Assembly: GCA_021810175.1 (NCBI GenBank) | Contig: JAJZJJ010000049.1 | Coordinates: forward strand, 1-10,585 | DNA length: 10,585 nt | Origin: Acidobacteriota bacterium | GTDB lineage: Bacteria > Acidobacteriota > Terriglobia > Terriglobales > Acidobacteriaceae | Direction: 5' to 3' | Shown: one piece after another, positions 1-10,585 of the stretch | Position numbering within the stretch: the first letter of the stretch is position 1 | Layout: each line of letters starts with the position of its first letter | Made by a program: the position numbers and the translations under genes | Notes under the pieces: generated by a model | What the model was told of the DNA's origin: nothing | Database searches by the model: none | Seen by the model: only the letters and a program-made list of their open reading frames with translations

Positions 1-2
1 GC

Positions 3-203
3 ATCCAGGAACACATGCCCCACTGCGCCGAAACCGACGAAGTCTTTCCCCACTCTTATAAATTCGATCAGGGATACATGTTCCCCGGCGATGCACCCGG
101 CCTCGGCGTCGATCTCGACGAGAAGCTCGCCGCCAAATTTCCCTACCAGCGCGCCTACCTGCCGGTGCTGCGCAAACTCGACGGAACCCTCTGCGACTGG
201 TAG
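3..203 (+). CDS. manD: C-terminal end of a ManD/RspA-like dehydratase (enolase superfamily), 5' truncated by the window
   Basis: The frame is open from the first complete codon at position 3 and ends with TAG at 201-203, giving the last 66 residues; the real start lies before the window. The segment reads [19 protein letters not shown], then [20 protein letters not shown], then [20 protein letters not shown]. From memory of the family, this is the characteristic end of D-mannonate dehydratase ManD/RspA proteins: an IQE-MPH strand, ETDxVFPH, PGDxPGLGVDIDE, and a terminal DGT-x-x-W. These Mg2+-dependent enolase-superfamily enzymes dehydrate D-mannonate or related sugar acids to 2-keto-3-deoxy acids in the cytoplasm. 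The metal ligands and the catalytic barrel are outside the window, so exact substrate and activity cannot be judged; related RspA proteins can be weak or inactive on mannonate. The gene converges on the leftward export operon and is probably unrelated to it. Confidence 0.82.
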
Positions 204-272
204 CCGCCGGCGGCGCGTGCTCCGGTCCTGTACGCCTGCCGAATCTCGCCCGCCCGCTTCCTTTCCTCACCC

Positions 273-310
273 AAAACAAAAGCGGCGGCCACCCAAATGG
301 TGCCGCCGCT
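273..310 (-). terminator. Intrinsic terminator of the leftward exopolysaccharide operon
   Basis: Read on the minus strand, arms AGCGGCGGC and GCCGCCGCT (9 bp, 281-289 pairing with 302-310) close a hairpin whose top continues with ACC/GGT around a 5-nt loop, with one bulged base at 290. The stem is followed directly by TTTGTTTT (273-280). It lies about 20 bp after the stop codon of the chain-length gene. On the plus strand no T-run follows the stem, so it mainly serves the leftward transcript, although the hairpin may also slow transcription from the convergent dehydratase gene. Confidence 0.85.
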
Positions 311-330
311 CCCGCGTTGCGAAGTGAACA

Positions 331-1596
331 TCAGGAGGCCTTCCGCTTCCTCCACCGAAGCTCGTTCCTGAGCAGAGCCAGCTTGGCTCCCGTTTCACCG
401 TCGGCTTCCAGCCGCTCCATCCCAGCCCGGCCCAGGGCAATAAGAATGCTGATGAAAAGGCCAGCAAATGTCGCGGCAATCACAATCAGCGCCCGTTTCG
501 GCGAGGACTTGTGATCGGGCACGATTGCCGGATCCACAACCTGAATCAACGCGCCTTCCTTCGCCTCATCCAGCTTGGCCACTTCGTACTGCTGAGCCAG
601 AATGTCGAAGATCGTCTGATAGTACTTCACGTCCCGCAACCGGCGCACATATTCAAGACTGGCCTGCGGAACTTTACCCTTTGGCACCAGCAGCGAACTC
701 GGGTTTTCTTCCGATCCCCCCAGGCTCGCCTGCTCTGTCCGCAGCGCGGCGAGTTCCTGCTGCGCCTGCACCAGCTCGGAGTTCTCCCCCGTGGCAAAAG
801 TCTGCAGCGCATGAATCTCCACTTCCTTCGCCACAATCTGTGCCCGCAGGCTCGCGGCCGACTCGATCAAAGCCGCTGCCTGGCTGTTCACCTGGATCAT
901 CCCTGTTTTGATTTCGGTCTCCTTCAGCGCCTCTTCCGCATTCGTCAGCTGATCCTTTGCCTTCTTCAGCTGCTGATCGTAAAAGACACGCCTCTGCGAT
1001 GCTTCCGAAATCGCCAGATGCTCGCTCAAATGCCGAAACGCATCCACGTACCCGTTTGCAAGAGCCGCAGCCTTGTGTGGATTGCGATCCGTTACGGATA
1101 TGTGGATTAACCCATCTTTCCCGTTGCCATCGACTTTTGAATGATCTTCAAACTTCTTGCGCGCTCGAGACAGCAATTTTTCATGGTATTCCTTCATCAG
1201 CCCGAACTTCTGAATCACCGCATCTTCTACCGTCCGGCTCTGGAACATCGCAACGTATTGGTCGTTGGGATTCTTGAGCCCCATCGATCCCCCGGCCAGT
1301 GAGGCAAGGCCACCCATCCCACCCAATTCCGATCCCAGCATTGCCCCAAGCGAAGATCCCCGGTGTTGCGGCGGCAGCAGGGTAACGGTAGCGGTGTACT
1401 TCTTCGGCAACAGCAGTGAAACCACAATGGCCACCACGGCGAACGCCGCCGTCACCCTCACCACCGTTCGTCGCCGTTCTGCCAATACAATCAGCAGGTC
1501 AAGCAGTGAAATCTCCTCGTCTGCCGTCTGCTTCTGCCGCGCCAGAGCCGCCGTCTGCGGCTCCGGAACTGCGGTGCCCTTCGTTTCTGTTGCCAT
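331..1596 (-). CDS. Wzz/PCP-type polysaccharide chain-length determinant protein
   Basis: This 421-residue inner-membrane protein has the two-helix layout of polysaccharide co-polymerases. A short cytoplasmic N-terminus (EEISLLDLLIVLAERRR, about 27-43) leads into TM1 (about 44-63). A long periplasmic region follows, with a Gly/Met-rich stretch (about 81-107) and predicted coiled coil (about 195-295), and the protein ends with a PCP-like motif (VVDPAIVP and SPKRA, about 353-369), TM2 (about 369-388) and a basic tail. The family controls the length of O-antigen or exopolysaccharide made by the Wzx/Wzy route and contacts the outer-membrane exporter. There is no BY-kinase domain or Tyr-rich tail, so it is the kinase-less type. 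The ATG at 1594-1596 is preceded by GAGGT (1601-1605, 4-nt gap). It follows the SLBB gene by 74 bp on the same strand, and a terminator follows it, so the two look like one transcript. Confidence 0.88.
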   Translation of the reverse strand: MATETKGTAVPEPQTAALARQKQTADEEISLLDLLIVLAERRRTVVRVTAAFAVVAIVVSLLLPKKYTATVTLLPPQHRGSSLGAMLGSELGGMGGLASLAGGSMGLKNPNDQYVAMFQSRTVEDAVIQKFGLMKEYHEKLLSRARKKFEDHSKVDGNGKDGLIHISVTDRNPHKAAALANGYVDAFRHLSEHLAISEASQRRVFYDQQLKKAKDQLTNAEEALKETEIKTGMIQVNSQAAALIESAASLRAQIVAKEVEIHALQTFATGENSELVQAQQELAALRTEQASLGGSEENPSSLLVPKGKVPQASLEYVRRLRDVKYYQTIFDILAQQYEVAKLDEAKEGALIQVVDPAIVPDHKSSPKRALIVIAATFAGLFISILIALGRAGMERLEADGETGAKLALLRNELRWRKRKAS

Positions 1597-1670
1597 TTAG
1601 ACCTCAGCCTCTGCCCACGTCACGGTGCATCGCTTTGTCCTCCAGCCCAGCACCGTTCTTCGCACTCCGG

Positions 1671-4442
1671 CTAGTAATGAATAATGCTCAATGACGCCGC
1701 TCCCAGCGCAAACTGCGAGAACAATCCCGACCAGTTCATCAGCCCCGCCAGCGCCGATGGCTTCAGAATCTTTTGCGGGACCACGATCGTATCTCCCGGG
1801 TACACGCGCAGACTGTCGAAATCGTTGCCCCAGATGCTGTTCGAAGCCGCCCGGCTCACCACCGAACCATTCGCGCGAATCACAAATGCCGCCTTCCGGT
1901 CGGCCCCCTCTTCCGGGCCTCCGGCCAGCCGCAGATACTCCCCCACTCGCGCTCCCTTGTCGTACAGAAACGAATTCTGGTCGTAAACCGCACCCACAAC
2001 GTTCACCGTCGCCGGAATCGGAGGCACCACGAATCGGTCCCCATTCTCCAGCGTAATGTCCGGCAGCGCCGCCACTCCCCGGCTCCCGGGCCGCAGATCC
2101 AGCACAATCCGCCCCGTAGCTCTCATCTGCTTCAGCTGCGCCAGCATCTGCTGGTCGATTGACGTTCCTCCCCCATTGGCAGTCAGGCTGTGCCCTGAAC
2201 TAACCGCCGATGACTCCAGCGCCATGTCGCCCTGCGTCATTCGCAGCTGCAGCGACGCTAGATAATCGTCCATCCGCCGCTGCTGGAGCTCTCGCGTCGA
2301 CCGCCGCGTGAACTGCGAGCCATAAAGATAGGCATCCGGACTCAGGCCGCCCGCCTGCTTCACCAGCTCCTGCAGCGTCTCGCCAGGCTTCACCGTGTAG
2401 ACCCCAGCCCGCGCGAATTCCCCTTCCAGATCCACAATCTTCGTCTGCTGCCCCAGCGGCACCTGGATATTCGCCTGCGAAAAAATGGTGACCACATCCC
2501 CCGGTTCCAGCAACAAATTCTGCGACGGATCGTGCTGCAGCACCAGCTTGCCCAGATCGAACGGAATCAGCTCATCCTTCAGCGTCTTCGGATTCTGGCG
2601 CTGAATCACCGCATAGCTCCAGTCAATCTCCGGCGCAACCGGATTATTCACCGTCTCCATCAGCCGCTGGCTCAACCGCGACATGGATGCGAATCGACGG
2701 TTCCCCATTGCGTTGCCGCCGTTTTGGTTCCCCCCGGCGTTGCCCCCACCCTGGCTCGGCATCACTTCAAAGCCCTGGCTTCCGCCCTCGATCGGGCTGC
2801 TCATATTGCTGTAGCCGCTCCCGTAGTTGCCGTAGGAGTTGCTGCCGTTGGAGTTGCTGCCATACGGACCGGTGCCTCCGGTCTGCGCATTGGACGGGTT
2901 CTGCCCAGCCTCCCCCATGCGCCGCAACTGCTCCATCTGCCCCATTTGGGCCAGCTGGGCCGGCCCTGGCTGAACCCCCGCCGCCTGCGCCTCCGGCGTC
3001 ACCCACCCCGGACGTATTGCGCTTGGGTTCAGCAGTTGGCCCCGCGGCAGTTCCACCGCCTCGTTCGGCTGCCTCAGCCCAGGAAAATTCTGCAGCGGCA
3101 CAAACTCCGGTGTCTGCATCCCCAGTTGTGCACGCCTCCACCAGTAGTTCCGCGTGATCAGCGATGCCTTGTCAGGAATCAGATCGCTCAGCCGCATTCC
3201 CGGGTGCCACGCAAACCGCCCCGGATTCGCGGTGTTCCCCCGCAAAATGACTGTCTCCTGATACTTCGGAAGAATGGGAACGATCCGCACCAGATCCCCG
3301 TCGTGCAGCCTCGTCTCCAGCCCGGCTTTGTCATAAGACACCTGCATCGCATAACGGTCTCGATGATGGTTGATTCGTTCGATCGATACCTGCTTCTCCG
3401 CTGCTACCGCTGAGACGCCCCCGGCGTCCGCCAAAGCCCCGGCCAGCGTTTCCCCCGGCAGCAGTTCGTAAATCGCCGGATCCTTCACGCTTCCCGTAAT
3501 CGCCACCTGCGCCCCCACCGGAGGAATGAAAATCACATCCCCCGACTGCAGATGCACATCGCCCTTCCGGTCGCCGTGAATCAGCAGATTGTAGAGGTCG
3601 AAGTCTGCGATCTTCTTCCCGCCCCGCCGTACCTGAATCTGCCGCAGCGATCCCATCGGCGAAGGCCCGCCGCTCGCGAACAGCGCATCGATCAGCGTGC
3701 TCAGCGAGCTGATCGTGTACACCCCCGGTCGCCGCGCTGCACCCGTCACGTACACCTGAATCGAACCGATCTGCCCCAGCTCTGCCGTCAGATTGAAGTT
3801 CTTGTAGACGCGCCCGACCGCCGCCCGCAGATGCTCGTGCAGCTGAGAGTACGGCAGCCCCGCGACCTCGACCTCCCCAACCTGGGGCAGATAGATGTCC
3901 CCACTGCGGTCCACAACCACGTTTGCCTGCAGGTTCACCTGTCCCCATATCCGAACCCGCAGCTCATCGCCCGGCGCGATTGTGTAGTTCGGCGGCACAG
4001 GCGTCATATTCAGCGGCGCGAATGTCGTAGGAACGTTCTGGAACAGACTCGCCCCGTAAATCGGCAGAATCTGCCCCGTCGTCGACGCCACAAACTTCTG
4101 AAACTCCGTCAGCGGCCCCGGAGCATACGTAGCCGGATTCAGCCCGGTCATCGGGTAGTACTGCCCCCCCATCGGGTAGTACTGCCCCCCGGCCTGTCCC
4201 ATGTCCGTATAGTTCGGCAGGTTCCCCGTCGGCTGCAGTCCCGCTGAAGGTGTGCTGCCGGACAGATTCAGGTTCATTCCCGTCATCGGCGTCTGCGTCT
4301 GGCATTGCGGCAGGTTGGCCCCCAGCGGACTCGAACAGTCGGCCGAGCCGCCCTGTGAACCAAAGTTTTGTGCCCACACCGTGCCAACATCGGCAAGTAC
4401 CAGAGAAGTTAACGCTAAAACCAATACCGCTCTTGTCTTCAT
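1671..4442 (-). CDS. Large SLBB-domain polysaccharide export protein (Wza-like outer-membrane channel)
   Basis: I place the start at the ATG 4440-4442 (923 residues), because it begins a clean signal peptide: MKTR, a hydrophobic core AVLVLALTSLVLA, and cleavage near VWA-QN. The frame extends to a GTG at 4511, but that would put 23 residues before the signal. No Cys lies at the cleavage site, so unlike E. coli Wza it is not an obvious lipoprotein. Domains (residues from 4442): Poly_export about 152-228 (YTIAPGDELRVRIWG...GDIYLPQVG), SLBB1 about 229-307 (VTGAARRPGVYTI), SLBB2 about 313-390, SLBB3 about 397-480, a Gly/Asn/Ser linker about 520-582, SLBB4 about 665-760 (GEFARAGVYTVKPGETL), SLBB5 about 812-892, and a hydrophobic C-terminal tail (ALAGLMNWSGLFSQFALGAA). 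Wza has about 380 residues, so this is more than double. It should carry polymer across periplasm and outer membrane with the Wzz-like partner encoded next. No strong Shine-Dalgarno precedes the ATG. Confidence 0.9.
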   Translation of the reverse strand: MKTRAVLVLALTSLVLADVGTVWAQNFGSQGGSADCSSPLGANLPQCQTQTPMTGMNLNLSGSTPSAGLQPTGNLPNYTDMGQAGGQYYPMGGQYYPMTGLNPATYAPGPLTEFQKFVASTTGQILPIYGASLFQNVPTTFAPLNMTPVPPNYTIAPGDELRVRIWGQVNLQANVVVDRSGDIYLPQVGEVEVAGLPYSQLHEHLRAAVGRVYKNFNLTAELGQIGSIQVYVTGAARRPGVYTISSLSTLIDALFASGGPSPMGSLRQIQVRRGGKKIADFDLYNLLIHGDRKGDVHLQSGDVIFIPPVGAQVAITGSVKDPAIYELLPGETLAGALADAGGVSAVAAEKQVSIERINHHRDRYAMQVSYDKAGLETRLHDGDLVRIVPILPKYQETVILRGNTANPGRFAWHPGMRLSDLIPDKASLITRNYWWRRAQLGMQTPEFVPLQNFPGLRQPNEAVELPRGQLLNPSAIRPGWVTPEAQAAGVQPGPAQLAQMGQMEQLRRMGEAGQNPSNAQTGGTGPYGSNSNGSNSYGNYGSGYSNMSSPIEGGSQGFEVMPSQGGGNAGGNQNGGNAMGNRRFASMSRLSQRLMETVNNPVAPEIDWSYAVIQRQNPKTLKDELIPFDLGKLVLQHDPSQNLLLEPGDVVTIFSQANIQVPLGQQTKIVDLEGEFARAGVYTVKPGETLQELVKQAGGLSPDAYLYGSQFTRRSTRELQQRRMDDYLASLQLRMTQGDMALESSAVSSGHSLTANGGGTSIDQQMLAQLKQMRATGRIVLDLRPGSRGVAALPDITLENGDRFVVPPIPATVNVVGAVYDQNSFLYDKGARVGEYLRLAGGPEEGADRKAAFVIRANGSVVSRAASNSIWGNDFDSLRVYPGDTIVVPQKILKPSALAGLMNWSGLFSQFALGAASLSIIHY
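2697..2879 (-). other. Gly/Asn/Ser-rich low-complexity linker inside the SLBB export protein
   Basis: This part of the export gene encodes about 60 residues dominated by Gly, Asn, Ser, Gln and Tyr (for example GSNSNGSNSYGNYGSGYSNM and GGGNAGGNQNGGNAMGN). It separates three N-terminal SLBB domains from the C-terminal pair. A Gln/Met-rich stretch (QLAQMGQMEQLRRMGEAGQN) lies just before it. The reading frame is unbroken. It is probably a flexible linker, and no family function can be assigned. Confidence 0.75.
4149..4190 (-). repeat. Perfect 21-bp tandem duplication in the export gene (GGQYYPM twice)
   Basis: Two identical 21-bp units, 4149-4169 and 4170-4190, each run from CATCGGGTAG to a run of six C on the plus strand. 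On the coding strand they give GGQYYPM-GGQYYPM near residues 86-99 of the export protein, between the signal peptide and the Poly_export domain. The unit is a multiple of three, so copy-number changes would keep the frame. Confidence 0.95.
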
Positions 4443-4645
4443 ATTCACTTTGCACGGAACAAGGTTGTGCGCAGGAATCAACCGCAACCTAAAAATCCCC
4501 GGCGGGGCCACACTATCCGTGTCTCGTCAGTCTAGCATTCGCGCCGTTATGCGCGGTGGCGTTTTCACCGCCTGTTCCCGGACTGGAACTCCTGGAATCC
4601 GTTTCTCGTAATGGCACCTGCAGCAGATTGACGAGCAATTTCATG

Positions 4646-4673
4646 TTGGACCTGCCGCCTTTCCTGGTATACT
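4646..4673 (+). promoter_or_regulatory. Candidate extended -10 sigma70-type promoter for the sugar transferase
   Basis: TATACT at 4668-4673 matches TATAAT at five of six bases and is preceded by TG at the right distance (4665-4666), the extended -10 form. A poor -35 candidate, TTGGAC (4646-4651), lies 16 bp upstream; extended -10 promoters tolerate this. Transcription would begin near 4680 and leave a leader of about 140 nt before the ATG at 4821. Confidence 0.45.
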
Positions 4674-4702
4674 GCAGCTCAGTAATCGAGTCTCGCTACA
4701 TT

Positions 4703-4724
4703 ACAGTTCAATAACAGTTCCTGT
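4703..4724. repeat. ACAGTTC direct repeat, 11-bp period, with trailing CTGT
   Basis: ACAGTTC occurs at 4703-4709 and again at 4714-4720, start-to-start 11 bp, about one helical turn. The second copy runs into CTGT (4721-4724), so that ACAG-TTC-CTGT is also a small inverted repeat. It lies about 25-45 bp after the proposed start of transcription of the transferase, a place where a repressor could bind. No known regulator is recognised. Confidence 0.4.
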
Positions 4725-4820
4725 CACACTTGCCTCTCTACCCTGGATTTGCGCGCGTGAATATCATTTTGTTGTTTCGCCGCGGAAGATGCTTCGAAGC
4801 GGTCCGGAAGATTCGATCCT

Positions 4821-5717
4821 ATGAGCTCATTATCCTTCGAGAATCTTTTCCCTTCGGATTCGGAAAACCATTCCAATCCGAAGGCAAATCCCGTTACGTC
4901 CCTCCGCTCCGGGAAATTCCCTGTGCAGTGGAGTGCCTCTGCCAATGAGATCGCCGCAGGCGTGAAGACTCTCAGCAGTGCCAGCCCCTGGGTGCTCTCC
5001 CGCACCCGCCGCTGCATCGACTTCCTGATCGCGCTCGCGGCCCTGACCGTCTTCCTCCCCTTCATCCTGGTCGCCGCCCTGCTGGTCCGTCTCGATTCGC
5101 GCGGCCCCATCTTCTTCCGGCAGCGCCGCATGGGCCGCGCCAGCCGCGAGTTCACCCTCTACAAGTTCCGCTCCATGCGCTGCGAGGGCGAATGCGGCTC
5201 CTGCATCACCGTCAAGGGTGACTCCCGCATTACCCCTGTCGGCGCCTTCCTGCGCCGCTTCAAGCTCGACGAACTCCCCCAGTTCTGGAATGTCCTCCGC
5301 GGCGATATGGCCCTCGTTGGCCCCCGTCCCAAACTGCCCCACCACGAAGCCCTCCACATGGCCTGCCGCCCCGGCGTTACCGGCGCTGCCACCCTCGCCT
5401 TCCGCAAGGAAGAGGAATTCCTCTCCGGCATTCCCGAACACGAACTGGAAGCCTTCTACGAAGTCTTCGTCAAGCCCGCCAAAGCCAGGCTCGACCTCGA
5501 CTATATGCGCTCGGCTACCATCTTCAGCGACCTCGCTCTCCTCTGGCGCACCGCTTCTTCCTGCTTCTTCGCCTCCGAACAGTCCCTCCAGGATCTCGCC
5601 CAGATCGTCGCCAACTTTGCCGCCGAACGTTCCGCCCCAGCCAGCGTTCATAGTGTGCATGTCGTCCCCGTCTCGGATAATCGCGTGCACGCCTCCAGCG
5701 TCGCCTCTGAAGTCTGA
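4821..5717 (+). CDS. Bacterial sugar transferase (monotopic phosphoglycosyl transferase, WcaJ/PglC-like)
   Basis: This 298-residue protein would transfer a sugar phosphate from a nucleotide sugar to undecaprenyl phosphate at the inner membrane, the first step of repeat-unit synthesis. Hallmarks in order: a membrane helix [20 protein letters not shown] (about 64-83) with a Pro that suits a re-entrant helix; [12 protein letters not shown] (95-106); LYKFRSM (113-119); [20 protein letters not shown] (143-162) with the catalytic Asp150-Glu151 pair; [10 protein letters not shown] (164-173); and RPGVTG (183-188). The 60 residues before the helix and the 45 after about 253 are outside the core; with no extra membrane helices, it is the short PglC-like type rather than full-length WcaJ. 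The ATG at 4821 is the only usual start in the frame after a stop at 4758; GGAAG lies 10 nt upstream, a weak ribosome site. Unusual: Cys121, Cys125 and Cys128 form a CxxxCxxC cluster in the active-site half. The sugar substrate cannot be read from sequence. Confidence 0.92.
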
Positions 5718-5796
5718 TCCCTGGACCCTGACGGGTATGCCGCCGGCCACAGCCAGCGCCTGTCCGCTCACATCCTCCCTTCCTGCCGTTTCAATT

Positions 5797-5812
5797 CGGG
5801 ATTGCAATCCCG
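5797..5812. repeat. Perfect 16-bp palindrome CGGGATTGCAATCCCG
   Basis: CGGGATTG (5797-5804) is followed directly by its reverse complement CAATCCCG (5805-5812), with no mismatch. A second short palindrome, TACCG-C-CGGTA, follows at 5819-5829. The pair lies 80 bp after the transferase stop and about 150 bp before the next gene. As RNA it can fold as a 6-bp stem with a TGCA loop, but there is no T-run after it, so it is a poor intrinsic terminator. A dimeric regulator site is the other simple reading. Confidence 0.6.
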
Positions 5813-5948
5813 TTCCAGTACCGCCGGTATCCATTCCTGACAAAAGTAATCTCCCGGCCCACCCCACCCTGCCCCAATAATCAACCTGTCCCCGCAAGGA
5901 CATACTCATTGCGTCACGCTGCATTGACTGGCCCGCGTTTCGCAAGCC

Positions 5949-5952
5949 GAGG
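5949..5952 (+). promoter_or_regulatory. Ribosome binding site that fixes the GTG start of the giant gene
   Basis: GAGG sits 8 nt before the GTG at 5961-5963. A stop codon in the same frame at 5925-5927 leaves little room upstream, and the GTG is followed at once by a good signal peptide. Together these support GTG as the true start. Confidence 0.7.
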
Positions 5953-5960
5953 CATGCAAC

Positions 5961-8900
5961 GTGAATTGCCCGCCCGCGAACCCGTCCCGTGCGTTTCCCT
6001 CTTCCTTCCCCATTCTTCTCACCTCCATCCTCGCCTTCGCCACCCTCCTCGCTTCAGGCCTTGCCGCCCAGACTCACCAGCGGTCGCCGCTGACCAGTCC
6101 CGCGGCTCAGGCCACACGATCCGTCCTCTTCTTCGCTCGCCGTGGCTTTGCCCGTCCACGACAACTCCAGCCCGCCAGTGTCTGGATGCGCGTCGGCCGG
6201 CAGCCATACGTCTTCCCGGGCGCCACCGCCGTCTCCACCCTTGTCTGGCAGCCTGTCGGTCCCTTCCAGGTGAAGACCTCGGCCTGGGGACTCGTCACCG
6301 GCAGAATCATCAGCCTCGCCGCTGACCCCTCCGACCCTTCCGGTAACTCTGTGTTCGTGGGCACCGCCGGCGGCGGCATCTGGAAATCCACGAACGCGGC
6401 CGCCGATCCGGCTTCCGTCTCCTTCTCCCCGTTGACGGACACCTCCGGCGCCTTTTCCTCGGTCGCCATCTCCTCCCTCAGCATTGGCGCGGTCTCCGCC
6501 CAGCCCGGCGGCACCGGCGTGGTCCTCGGCGGCACCGGCGACCCCAACAACGCTCTCGATTCCTGGTATGGCGTCGGCATCCTCCGCTCCACGGACGACG
6601 GCAATACCTGGTCCCTCATCCCCCAGGCCATCTCTCCCGTCAACAGCGCCAACACCTACGACTTCACCGGCAATGCCTTTGCCGGCTTCGCCTGGAGCTC
6701 CGTCGACCCCGGACTGGTCGTCGCCGCCGTGGCCGACTCCGAATACGGCGATCTGCTCGGCTCTCCCGACTCCCAGGCCATCCGCGGCCTCTACTATTCC
6801 TCCGACGCCGGCAAGTCCTGGCAGCTCGCCACCATTCAGGACGGATCCACCATCATCCAGGCCGCCGGCAGAAATGTCGTCGGCGGAAACGACGCCACCT
6901 CGGTAGTCTGGAACCCGATCCGCAAGCGCTTCTACGCCGCCATTCGTTACCACGGCTATTACGAATCATCCGACGGAATTACCTGGGCCCGTCTCGCAGG
7001 CCAGCCCGGCGCCGGACTCTCCCCATCCGCCTGCCCCGCCGACCCCGGCCTCCCCGGTTCTCCCGCATGCCCCATCTTCCGCGGCGTCCTCGCCGTTCAG
7101 CCCGTCACCGGCGACATGTTCGCTCTCACCGTGGATCAGAACAACATCGACCAGGGCCTCTGGCGCGACGCATGCAATCTCGCTGCCGGCGCCTGCGCCT
7201 CGCCCGTGCAGTTCGCCGACCCCATCGCCGACCAACCCCTCGAATCCGCCCCCGGCGACAAAACCATCCCGAATGCCGCCTACGATCTCGTCCTCGCCGC
7301 CGTCCCTTCGCAGCAGGACACCCTGCTCTTCGCCGGCGCCACCGACATCTGGCGCTGCAGCCTCGCCAACAGCTGCGTCTGGCGCAATACCACCAACAGC
7401 CGAACCTGCGATTCCGCCCAGGTCGCTCCCGCTCAGCACGCCATCGAATCGACGTTCGGCGCTTCCGGCCTCCTCTATTTCGGCAATGATGGCGGCCTCT
7501 GGCGTACCACCGATGCTGTCGCCCAGCAGCAGTCTCCCTGCTCCCCCGACGATGCCGCCCACTATCAGAACCTCAACTCCGCCATCGGCTCTCTCGCTCA
7601 GGTCGAGGCTTTCAGCCAGGATCCCGCCGACTCCTCCACCCTTCTGGCCGCTCTCGGCGCTCTCGGCACCGCGGCTCCCGCTGCCGCCTCCGGTCCCTGG
7701 AACCAGGTCCTCGACGGCGAAGGCGATGCTGTTGCCATCGACCCTTCCGATCCCTCCAACTGGTACGCCACCTCCGAGTTCGGCGTCGGCATCAATCGCT
7801 GCACCGTCGGCAAATCCTGCGACATCGCCGCCTTTGGCAATGTCGCCATTGGCGAGCCCCAGGTCGACAACGACGTCCAGCTCATCCCAGCTCCCTGGAT
7901 CCTCGACCCCCTCGATCCCTCCCGCATCATCCTCGGCACCTGTCGCATCTGGCGCGGCTCTGCCGATGGCCAAAACTGGAACCAGAACAGCCTGCTCAGC
8001 GGCATTCTCGACGGCCAAAGCGCCTCCTCCTGCAACGGCAATGCGGAAATCCGCGCCCTAGCCGTCGCTCCTGTCTCCGGCCTCTCACCCTCCTCCGAAC
8101 GCATCTATGCCGGCATGGCTGGCTCCCTTGACGGCGGCGGCCTGCTCCCCGGCCATATCTTCACCGCCGTTGTCGACGACTCTTCCCAGTCGTCCACCAC
8201 CACCTGGACCGACCTCTACAGCTCCCCCGTCTCCAATGCCTCGCTCCAGCCCCAGTTCGATCCCGGAGGCTTCGACATCTCCAGCATCGACATCGATCCT
8301 CACGACCCCACCGCGCAAACCATCTATGTCACCGTCCAGGGCTATTCAACGCCGGAACAACCCGAGCCCATCCTCTACCGTTCCACCGATGGCGGCGCAC
8401 ACTGGCTCGATATCACCGCCAACCTGCCTCCCGTGCCCGCCTCCAGCGTTGTTGTCGACCCCAACGATGCCAACATCGTCTACGTCGCCCTCGACACCGG
8501 CGTCTACTACACTCTGAACGTCGCGTCCTGCTCCTCCCCCGGTGCCGTTTGCTGGAATGTGCTCGGCGACGGCCTGCCCAACGCCCCCGTCACCGCCCTC
8601 ATGGCCGTCGCCAATGGCTCTGATCGGCTGCTGCGCGCCGCCACCTGGGGACGCGGCATCTGGCAAACCCAGTTGCTCACCTCCTCCATGCAGTTCACCA
8701 CCGCCACGCTCTCTCCCGCCGCGCTGACCTTCCCCGATCAGGCAGCGCAGACCGCCAGCACCCCGCAAACCGTAACCCTCTCCAATACTGGAACCCATCC
8801 CCTCACGGTTACCAGCGTCTCCATCCAGGGCGACTTCAATGAGACCGACAACTGCGCCTCCGTCTCCCTTGGCAACGGCAAGGCCTGCTCCTTCCAGGTC

Positions 8901-10451
8901 GTCTTCGACCCCTCCGCCGCCGGTCCCCGCCAGGGTTCCCTGACCATCTATGCCAATGTTTCCGGAGGCCAGCTGGTCCTTCCCCTCTCCGGAACCGGTC
9001 TCCCTCCCGGCAAAGTCGTCCTCACGCCTTCATCCCTCGCCTTTGCCGCCACCACCGTAAACTCCACCTCCGCTCCGCAGTCGATCACCGTCGCCAACAC
9101 CGGCTCGTCCTCCGTCACTCTTTCCGGCGAAAGCATCAGCGGCGACTTCGCCATCGACGCCAGCACCTGTCAGTCCACTCTGCCCCCGCAAACCGCCTGC
9201 GACCTTCGCATCGTCTTCAAACCCGCGACCTCCGGCCTCCGCGCGGGCGAGCTCATCGTCACCAGTTCCTCCGGCAAATTCACCGCCGCTCTCTCCGGCA
9301 CGGGTCAGACCGCTCCCACCGATGCCCTCTCGCCCGCCTCGCTCACCTTTGCCCCCCAGCAGGTCGGCACTTCCAGCCCCGCACAGCTCATCACCCTCTC
9401 CAACACTGGTGACGCGCCTCTCACGTCCATCGCCGCAACCGCCACCGGCGACTTCCACGCTGTCAACAACTGCGGCTCGCTCCTGCAGGGACACGCCACC
9501 TGTACCATCGCCGTCTCCTACGTTCCTGCCGCCACCGGGCAGGAATCCGGTACCCTCACCGTCTCCGACGTCCTGCGCTCCCAGACCATCGCCCTCAGCG
9601 GAACCGGAATCGCCCCGCCCGGTATCTCCGCCACCCCCAAATCCCTTGACTTCGGCAATCTGGCCGTCGGCTCCACCAGCTCCGCCCAGACCGTCACCCT
9701 CACCAACAATGGAGGCTTCGTGCTCACCACCCTCGCCGCCACCGTAACCAAAGGATTCGCCATCGCCTCCAGTACCTGCCCGGCCACACTCCCCATCGGC
9801 TCCACCTGTGCCATCGGCATCACCTTCTCGCCCACCGTCCCCGGTCCCGTCACCGGATCTCTCGCCGTCTCCGCCGCCAATCTCCCTCAGCCTCTCGCCG
9901 TCGCCCTCGCCGGCGCCGGAGCCGACTTCAGCATCGCCGTGGCCGGCTCATCCTCCGCCGTCATTACCTCCGGTCAGTCCGCCGTCTTCACCCTTCAGCT
10001 GGCCGCCCTCGACAACACTTCCGGTACCGTGAGCCTCGCCTGCACCGGAGCCCCAAAGAACTCCACCTGCACGCTCAACCCCTCCAGCATCGCTGTCAGC
10101 GCGGCCAATACCTCATCTGTAACCGTAACGGTTGCGACCAGCGTCCCGCCCACATCGTCGGCTCTGCGCCCGCCAGCTCCCTGGAAGATCGCTCTCCCCT
10201 CGCTGGCCATGATTTTTCCTCTGGGATGGGCAGGCCTCCGCCGCAGAAAGCGCGGCCTCGTCGCGCTCCTCGCCCTCGTCGCGCTCCTCGTCGTCCCGTC
10301 CGGCTGCGGAGTCACCGCAAGCTCCGGCGCATCCAGCGGCGGCGGGTCCGGCGCTCAGAACTCCACGCCGCCCGGCGATTATGTCATCACCGTAACCGGA
10401 ACCATGGCCAACATCGTGCACAGCGTCGCGGTAAAACTCACCGTACAGTAG
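5961..10451 (+). CDS. Giant exported protein: Asp-box beta-propeller, four choice-of-anchor D domains, split Ig-like tail with membrane insertion
   Basis: This 1,496-residue protein starts at GTG with GAGG 8 nt before. A signal peptide (FPILLTSILAFATLLASGLA, end near LAA-QT, about residue 37) sends it out. Residues about 90-905 look like a BNR/sortilin-type beta-propeller: Asp boxes STDDGNTW (210-217), SSDAGKSW (280-287) and STDGGAHW (808-815), degenerate copies KSTNAA (142-147) and SSDGITW (336-342), and a closing TWGRGIWQ (895-902). Residues about 915-1322 hold four ASH-like 'choice-of-anchor D' repeats, most ending in LSGTG. From 1323 an Ig-like domain begins (SGTVSLACTGAPKNSTC), is interrupted by two hydrophobic segments around RRRKR, PSGCG (Cys1449) and a Ser/Gly linker (about 1396-1468), then resumes as TPPGDYVITVTGT and ends TLTVQ-like (KLTVQ). 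Function is unknown: propellers of this type occur in glycosidases, sialidases and binding proteins, and no catalytic set is evident. It is probably surface-held or secreted. An IS481-type element sits just after the stop. Confidence 0.88.
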   Translation: MNCPPANPSRAFPSSFPILLTSILAFATLLASGLAAQTHQRSPLTSPAAQATRSVLFFARRGFARPRQLQPASVWMRVGRQPYVFPGATAVSTLVWQPVGPFQVKTSAWGLVTGRIISLAADPSDPSGNSVFVGTAGGGIWKSTNAAADPASVSFSPLTDTSGAFSSVAISSLSIGAVSAQPGGTGVVLGGTGDPNNALDSWYGVGILRSTDDGNTWSLIPQAISPVNSANTYDFTGNAFAGFAWSSVDPGLVVAAVADSEYGDLLGSPDSQAIRGLYYSSDAGKSWQLATIQDGSTIIQAAGRNVVGGNDATSVVWNPIRKRFYAAIRYHGYYESSDGITWARLAGQPGAGLSPSACPADPGLPGSPACPIFRGVLAVQPVTGDMFALTVDQNNIDQGLWRDACNLAAGACASPVQFADPIADQPLESAPGDKTIPNAAYDLVLAAVPSQQDTLLFAGATDIWRCSLANSCVWRNTTNSRTCDSAQVAPAQHAIESTFGASGLLYFGNDGGLWRTTDAVAQQQSPCSPDDAAHYQNLNSAIGSLAQVEAFSQDPADSSTLLAALGALGTAAPAAASGPWNQVLDGEGDAVAIDPSDPSNWYATSEFGVGINRCTVGKSCDIAAFGNVAIGEPQVDNDVQLIPAPWILDPLDPSRIILGTCRIWRGSADGQNWNQNSLLSGILDGQSASSCNGNAEIRALAVAPVSGLSPSSERIYAGMAGSLDGGGLLPGHIFTAVVDDSSQSSTTTWTDLYSSPVSNASLQPQFDPGGFDISSIDIDPHDPTAQTIYVTVQGYSTPEQPEPILYRSTDGGAHWLDITANLPPVPASSVVVDPNDANIVYVALDTGVYYTLNVASCSSPGAVCWNVLGDGLPNAPVTALMAVANGSDRLLRAATWGRGIWQTQLLTSSMQFTTATLSPAALTFPDQAAQTASTPQTVTLSNTGTHPLTVTSVSIQGDFNETDNCASVSLGNGKACSFQVVFDPSAAGPRQGSLTIYANVSGGQLVLPLSGTGLPPGKVVLTPSSLAFAATTVNSTSAPQSITVANTGSSSVTLSGESISGDFAIDASTCQSTLPPQTACDLRIVFKPATSGLRAGELIVTSSSGKFTAALSGTGQTAPTDALSPASLTFAPQQVGTSSPAQLITLSNTGDAPLTSIAATATGDFHAVNNCGSLLQGHATCTIAVSYVPAATGQESGTLTVSDVLRSQTIALSGTGIAPPGISATPKSLDFGNLAVGSTSSAQTVTLTNNGGFVLTTLAATVTKGFAIASSTCPATLPIGSTCAIGITFSPTVPGPVTGSLAVSAANLPQPLAVALAGAGADFSIAVAGSSSAVITSGQSAVFTLQLAALDNTSGTVSLACTGAPKNSTCTLNPSSIAVSAANTSSVTVTVATSVPPTSSALRPPAPWKIALPSLAMIFPLGWAGLRRRKRGLVALLALVALLVVPSGCGVTASSGASSGGGSGAQNSTPPGDYVITVTGTMANIVHSVAVKLTVQ
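8704..9927 (+). repeat. Four tandem ASH-like (choice-of-anchor D) domain repeats within the giant gene
   Basis: Four units of about 100 codons start near 8704, 9012, 9322 and 9625. Each follows the pattern LSPAALTF, then a TVTLSNTG-like strand (TVTLSNTG, SITVANTG, LITLSNTG, TVTLTNNG), a GDF or KGF turn, a Cys pair (C-x10-C in the first, C-x9-C in the others), a strand such as VVFDPSAAG or VSYVPAATG, and an end like LPLSGTGLPPG. Units are diverged at the DNA level, so this is an old protein-domain repeat, not a recent duplication. The family is an immunoglobulin-like fold found in bacterial surface proteins. Confidence 0.88.
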
Positions 10452-10461
10452 TCGGTCCTTC

Positions 10462-10467
10462 GCTAGG
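10462..10467. other. Left copy of the IS481-type target site, GCTAGG (NCTAGN)
   Basis: GCTAGG stands directly before the TGT end of the insertion element. IS481 of Bordetella is known to insert into NCTAGN and duplicate 6 bp. The other copy would lie beyond the far end of the element, outside the window. Confidence 0.75.
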
Positions 10468-10585
10468 TGTGAGGTTTCAACAGGTTGTCCGTCTGATCGA
10501 GAACTGGGAAGCTGGGTTTGCGAAGACTCAGAGTTCCAGGAGAGCAGATGGACTACCACCAGAATGCCCGACTGACGATACACAG
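10468..10585 (+). mobile_element. Left end of an IS481-family insertion sequence, cut by the window
   Basis: The element begins TGTGAGGTTTCAACAGG at 10468. From memory, the Bordetella IS481 end reads TGTGAAGATTCAATAGG, so 14 of these first 17 bases agree and both continue with TTGT. The inverted repeat probably spans 10468 to about 10490. Eighty bp inside, the transposase frame starts at 10548 with a strong Shine-Dalgarno. The element starts 16 bp after the giant gene's stop codon and probably lies between that gene and its native terminator. The right end is not visible, so completeness cannot be judged. Confidence 0.82.
10548..10585 (+). CDS. N-terminus of an IS481-family transposase (3' end outside window)
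   Basis: ATG at 10548 follows AGGAGAG (10538-10544) at ideal spacing. The visible product, MDYHQNARLTIH, matches the conserved start of IS481-family DDE transposases (M-x-x-H-x-NARLT-x-x-x-R), which lead into a helix-turn-helix and then an rve-type integrase core. Only 12 full codons are present, so the catalytic DDE residues and integrity cannot be checked. Reading in the same direction as the giant gene, it could receive read-through transcription from it. Confidence 0.8.
   Translation, partial: MDYHQNARLTIH

Follow-up and report, generated by a model that had tools for sequence, protein, structure and literature searches.

What are two hydrophobic segments and a basic cluster doing inside the last folded domain of a giant, probably secreted bacterial protein? 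The question is raised by a 10,585-nt stretch of DNA from an Acidobacteriota bacterium of the family Acidobacteriaceae (assembly GCA_021810175.1, contig JAJZJJ010000049.1, positions 1 to 10,585), which as a whole we term the window. A gene at 5961..10451 on its forward strand, assigned from its open reading frame (ORF) and domain matches, encodes a protein of 1496 residues whose C-terminal immunoglobulin-like (Ig-like) domain is interrupted by an insert. A preliminary description of the sequence had suggested that the insert may be a lineage-specific anchoring device, a membrane hairpin or a site for cutting and lipid modification at Cys1449, and had likened its first half to a PEP-CTERM sorting tail. 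Of this interpretation the anchoring part is supported and the PEP-CTERM part is not; the constant insertion boundary, the invariant Cys, the basic loop and the single modelled Ig fold fit an anchoring device as predicted from sequence and model. The reading that we favor, though not strongly, is that the last 110 residues form a C-terminal module of hairpin plus lipid anchor, with Lgt acting at Cys1449 and a possible cut by LspA.

The tail itself is already known: NCBIfam release 20.0 lists it as NF058595, invert_tail, under the putative name 'lipo-invert putative C-terminal anchoring domain'. By profile search the window tail is a member of this family. Residues 1386-1496 (10116..10448, forward strand) matched profile positions 2-113 of 113 (112 of the 113 positions) at 60.2 bits and E 2.2e-16, above the curated 37-bit cut-off. 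The match runs to the last residue of the protein, 1496, in the same C-terminal place as in the family, and we found no difference between the two. Anchoring is putative by the family's own name, and no paper describing the tail was found in the open-access literature. New here are the split Ig fold, lipobox-like statistics with controls, evidence for the dispensability of exosortase, and a hypothesis in which the Ig domain clamps its own membrane signal.

NF058595 was found in all eight Acidobacteriaceae genomes examined, with 8 to 36 matches each at E≤1e-3, counts that include partial matches to uninterrupted Ig domains. At E≤1e-8, 23 of the 199 Acidobacteriota genomes sampled carried it, as did 86 of 151 genomes of the class; in these two surveys no more than 21 and 28 candidates, respectively, were scored for any one genome, and their matches per genome are lower bounds. 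None of the 14 control genomes, those sampled outside Acidobacteriota, had a match over the cut-off, and the window's tail had no match among 72,556 plasmid records.

The split Ig-like domain

AlphaFold modelled residues 1322-1395 (9924..10145, forward strand; seven model strands) and residues 1469-1496 (10365..10448, forward strand; the last two strands) as one Ig-like fold, with the 73-residue insert directly before the last two strands. Both parts were delimited by profile, model and structure alignment. On both flanks of the insert pLDDT was 94–98; model confidence is read here as pLDDT, with no error matrix between parts. The split domain superposed on an uninterrupted Ig domain over 97 residues at 1.9 Å. 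Both flanks are thereby predicted to belong to one known Ig-like fold, a beta sandwich of NEW3 type. The earlier proposal that an insert of about 73 residues splits one Ig-like domain is borne out by this model and superposition. Across the aligned tails the insert lay at the same strand boundary.

The split is argued from uninterrupted copies together with the model, because HMMER breaks insert-spanning matches in two; a search with the flank profile gave no single match bridging an insert. The best match in a sequence search for solved relatives had an E value of 0.38. The first Ig part holds two other Cys, residues 1361 and 1370 in the window's protein, that were strongly conserved (82% and 92% of tails, respectively; e.g. 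L007:9787-10332). They may form a disulfide, which would be consistent with the periplasm.

The inserted hairpin and its cysteine

Tail statistics were taken from 188 non-redundant tails, comprising 73 from proteins, 61 from orthologue loci, 53 from other loci, and that of the window. An initial 199 tails yielded 195 unique ones and 188 after near-duplicate removal, with the window and P0001, the cluster of its protein, counted once. The protein search scored the 7995 candidates sharing the most words. Dropped from 87 proteins were P0016, P0025, P0026, P0034, P0045, P0071, P0072 and P0086, with no tail at the end, and P0027, with a cut end. Tails were gathered with a profile containing the Cys, and Cys-less tails may be under-sampled. 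In the 28 tails with two Cys close to the end the last was used, except in L124 and L128, where the first fit better, a choice that favors the count there.

The tails share a common order of helix 1, basic loop, helix 2, Cys, Gly/Ser-rich linker and two strands. In the window, hydrophobic helix 1 spans residues 1410-1426 (10188..10238, placed from the tail alignment; model helix 1411-1426), and is followed by the basic loop RRRKR at residues 1427-1431 (10239..10253). Hydrophobic helix 2, ending VVPSG, spans residues 1432-1448 (10254..10304; model helix 1433-1443) and leads to Cys1449 (10305..10307), the putative lipidation site, 47 residues from the C-terminal end. The Ser/Gly-rich linker, placed from the alignment and with mostly low pLDDT, covers residues 1450-1468 (10308..10364); all these features are on the forward strand.

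Charge was concentrated between the helices. Lys plus Arg averaged 4.3 per tail in the loop and the start of helix 2, versus 0.07 for Asp plus Glu; the corresponding values were 1.3 versus 0.45 before helix 1, and 0.4 versus 0.2 after the Cys. At least three Lys or Arg lay between the helices in 187 of the 188 tails, and the distance from the last of them to the Cys had a median of 17 residues (range 12–23). Lys/Arg-rich loops are cytoplasmic by the positive-inside rule; because of this rule and the charge counts, we infer a cytoplasmic loop and periplasmic Ig flanks. The fold would call for the same hairpin topology, one Ig fold requiring both flanks to be periplasmic, and by its predicted placement the second helix is what restores ordinary topology.

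A Cys stood at the end of helix 2 in every tail (188/188), the hydrophobic end having been defined without use of the Cys, and it was the single fully invariant residue of the alignment. With the Cys and the basic cluster conserved and the flanks modelled as one fold, neither of the outcomes that the preliminary description would have counted as refuting its reading was seen. The position before the Cys held Gly in 114 tails, Ser in 38, Ala in 35 and Thr in 1, so that Gly, Ala or Ser stood there in 187 of 188, the window included. After shuffling of the preceding 16 residues the mean was 66.5 and the maximum 83. A natural control came from the remaining ORFs at these loci in which a Cys ends a hydrophobic stretch; there, Gly, Ala or Ser came before the Cys in 24 of 75 cases overall and in 11 of 29 internal cases. 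Directly after the tail Cys, Gly was found in 131 tails and Asp in none. A broad PROSITE-type lipobox pattern matched 148 tails versus a shuffle mean of 53 and maximum of 72.

Might the two helices simply anchor an uncut, unlipidated protein in the inner membrane, and the Cys serve in a disulfide, in metal binding or structurally? Two helices alone suffice as an anchor, the basic loop is present in 187 of 188 tails, and the window's own lipobox is imperfect. Such a plain hairpin nevertheless leaves unexplained the small residue before the Cys, the Gly that so often follows, and the Cys itself as sole invariant residue. We regard it as unlikely.

The basic loop, helix 2, the small residue and the Cys resemble a type II lipoprotein signal peptide, the substrate of Lgt and LspA, in its basic start, hydrophobic stretch, small residue and Cys, and apparently in orientation. 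Type II signals are N-terminal, however, whereas that of the window is internal or C-terminal, at residues 1427-1449 of 1496, and has Pro at –3. The window thus has the small residue before the Cys, but neither the full lipobox nor the N-terminal location; because its signal lies at residues 1427-1449, we class the protein not as an ordinary lipoprotein but only as one that would work like it. Among 68 Met-starting tail proteins only 2 had an N-terminal lipobox-type pattern, which argues that the C-terminal tail would be the usual lipid site. Weak matches to lipoprotein models occurred among 59 orthologue tails, two to LptM and one to each of two other lipoprotein families. No orthologue without a tail was found among the 71 loci (of 80) with an intact 3' end.

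Proposed mechanism, rival readings and enzymes

In the hairpin-plus-lipid reading, Sec would export the 1496-residue protein, helix 1 of the tail would insert into the inner membrane with the RRRKR loop remaining in the cytoplasm, and helix 2 would return the chain to the periplasm. RRRKR, helix 2, the small residue and the Cys would then match a lipoprotein signal in composition and in orientation, but in an internal position. With helix 2 oriented as such a signal, Lgt would therefore probably modify Cys1449. The Ser/Gly tether would lead on to the two strands with which the Ig-like domain, started upstream of the hairpin, is completed, and hairpin and lipid together would keep the protein in the membrane, adjoining the folded Ig domain. 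LspA may in addition cut before Cys1449, producing a 48-residue lipopeptide; we give this step somewhat less than an even chance. Since both strands of this lipopeptide are part of the Ig fold, it would not come away from the protein.

A further hypothesis, offered more tentatively still, is that the Ig domain serves as a clamp on its own membrane signal. LspA cleavage at the internal lipobox would create a two-chain lipoprotein, its 48-residue lipopeptide held non-covalently by completing the Ig fold, for several proteins per genome and in many Acidobacteriota. In GAIN and SEA domains a fold cut near its end retains the C-terminal piece through strand pairing. We use these as an analogy and claim no homology; they cut themselves, whereas here any cut would be made by LspA.

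Several observations weigh against the lipid reading. The strict lipobox, [LVI][ASTVI][GAS]C, matched only 81 of 188 tails, and 40 failed even the broad pattern. The window's own VVPSGC fails both, owing to the Pro at –3, a residue found there in 15 tails. In a control set of N-terminal-like cases Gly, Ala or Ser came before the Cys in 7 of 17, reproducing no lipobox signal; because that signal is absent there, the set is no positive control. A hydrophobic N-terminal stretch was seen in only 47 of the 68 Met-starting tail proteins (gene starts are unreliable), and Lgt passed its curated cut-off in only 9 of 29 tail genomes. With a loop of 5 residues in the window's tail, helix 2 may have little space to get into LspA, and if the chain is uncut, a lipid in addition to two helices seems redundant. 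Finally, searches of the open-access literature turned up no example of an internal signal on which Lgt or LspA acts, and we know of none.

The candidate enzymes were surveyed in tail genomes; the sampled genomes carry no completeness values, and absences of an enzyme can be assembly gaps. LspA gave exactly one match per genome in 23 of 23 tail genomes (195 of 199 genomes overall), with no sign in those 23 of a dedicated second LspA. Lgt was matched in all 29 tail genomes searched. Among 23 tail genomes, 15 had a best Lgt match weaker than E 1e-26, versus 13 of the 170 others in which Lgt was matched (a further 6 gave no match). This divergence may follow lineage only; tail genomes such as G031, G074 and G129 carry Lgt over its cut-off.

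Pro occurred in helix 1 of 149 tails versus helix 2 of 46, perhaps for hairpin bending or as a protease site. Pro in a helix is a feature of intramembrane protease substrates, and the bias could fit an excised hairpin, in which one cut, by LspA, would fall before Cys1449 and another, by an intramembrane protease, within or ahead of helix 1, leaving a peripheral lipoprotein with a non-covalent lipopeptide, free to reach the outer membrane. Also in line with it are matches to the rhombosortase model, below its cut-off, in 29 of 29 tail genomes. These are probably general rhomboids, however, and were equally present in 14 of 14 control genomes; no conserved site was seen upstream of helix 1, and two unproven cuts are needed. 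We judge an excised hairpin improbable.

A sorting tail processed by exosortase or rhombosortase would have the second helix, Cys and strands to account for. As in PEP-CTERM and GlyGly-CTERM tails, an Arg cluster comes after a hydrophobic helix close to the C terminus, and exosortase was matched in 18 of 23 tail genomes versus 43 of 176 others, an enrichment that may follow lineage. Unlike those tails, the window's adds a second helix, a Cys and strands. No PEP-CTERM or GlyGly-CTERM model matched it; for PEP-CTERM there was no match at E≤1 for the window or at E≤0.1 for 59 tails. One of the 59 matched the sortase-B signal model TIGR03068 at 5e-4, probably by chance. Exosortase was not found in 5 of 23 tail genomes, nor at E≤1e-3 in G001, G003 and G007, three of the eight genomes reached via named loci. 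Because these three lack a match, and G003, with 8 tail proteins over the cut-off, comes from a record titled as a complete genome, exosortase is not required. Rhombosortase passed its cut-off in none of 29 tail genomes. Exosortase and rhombosortase were accordingly rejected as required enzymes on model-match and genome evidence, and the PEP-CTERM reading of the first half is not supported. A sorting tail of this type is very improbable.

The tail was also compared with MYXO-CTERM, the myxosortase system (PMC11980579). The two share a C-terminal tail with an invariant Cys, a helix and an Arg cluster, occurrence on many proteins per genome, and proposed lipidation. In MYXO-CTERM, as given there, the Cys precedes a single helix and the C-terminal end is Arg-rich, whereas the window tail has two helices, its Cys after the second, and two strands after the Cys, and so falls outside that definition of MYXO-CTERM.

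Host protein, locus and significance

The 1496-residue protein has, in order, a signal-peptide-like N terminus, a large N-terminal region with weak sortilin/BNR matches, four choice-of-anchor-D type Ig domains, and the split Ig tail. The signal-like N terminus is of the Sec type, as judged by reading the sequence, and is retained by the GTG start at 5961; the database copy P0001 (1421 aa) takes a later Met as its start, by which the signal peptide would be lost (5961-6187 region).

The upstream genes (331-5717) resemble an exopolysaccharide cluster, with a Wzz/GNVR chain-length protein (331-1596, reverse strand), an SLBB/Poly_export outer-membrane exporter (1671-4511, reverse strand) and a bacterial sugar transferase (4821-5717, forward strand). 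Within the flanks available for 80 related loci, their relatives occur in 7, 12 and 6 loci, respectively. Those loci, the best 80 of 530 relatives, come from Acidobacteriaceae and kin; their titles give Acidobacteria or its genera, with one exception, 'bacterium'. At two orthologue loci (L026:1106-6439 and L080:5536-10298) the frame is broken, with tail and main body in separate ORFs, from sequencing error or decay.

Proteins bearing the tail are variously named pro-kumamolisin, subtilase-family protease, arabinogalactan endo-galactosidase and lactonase YvrE. If Lgt and LspA accept internal signals, prediction tools that consider only the N terminus overlook a whole class of lipoproteins, and for a phylum common in soil part of the cell envelope would be open to re-reading.
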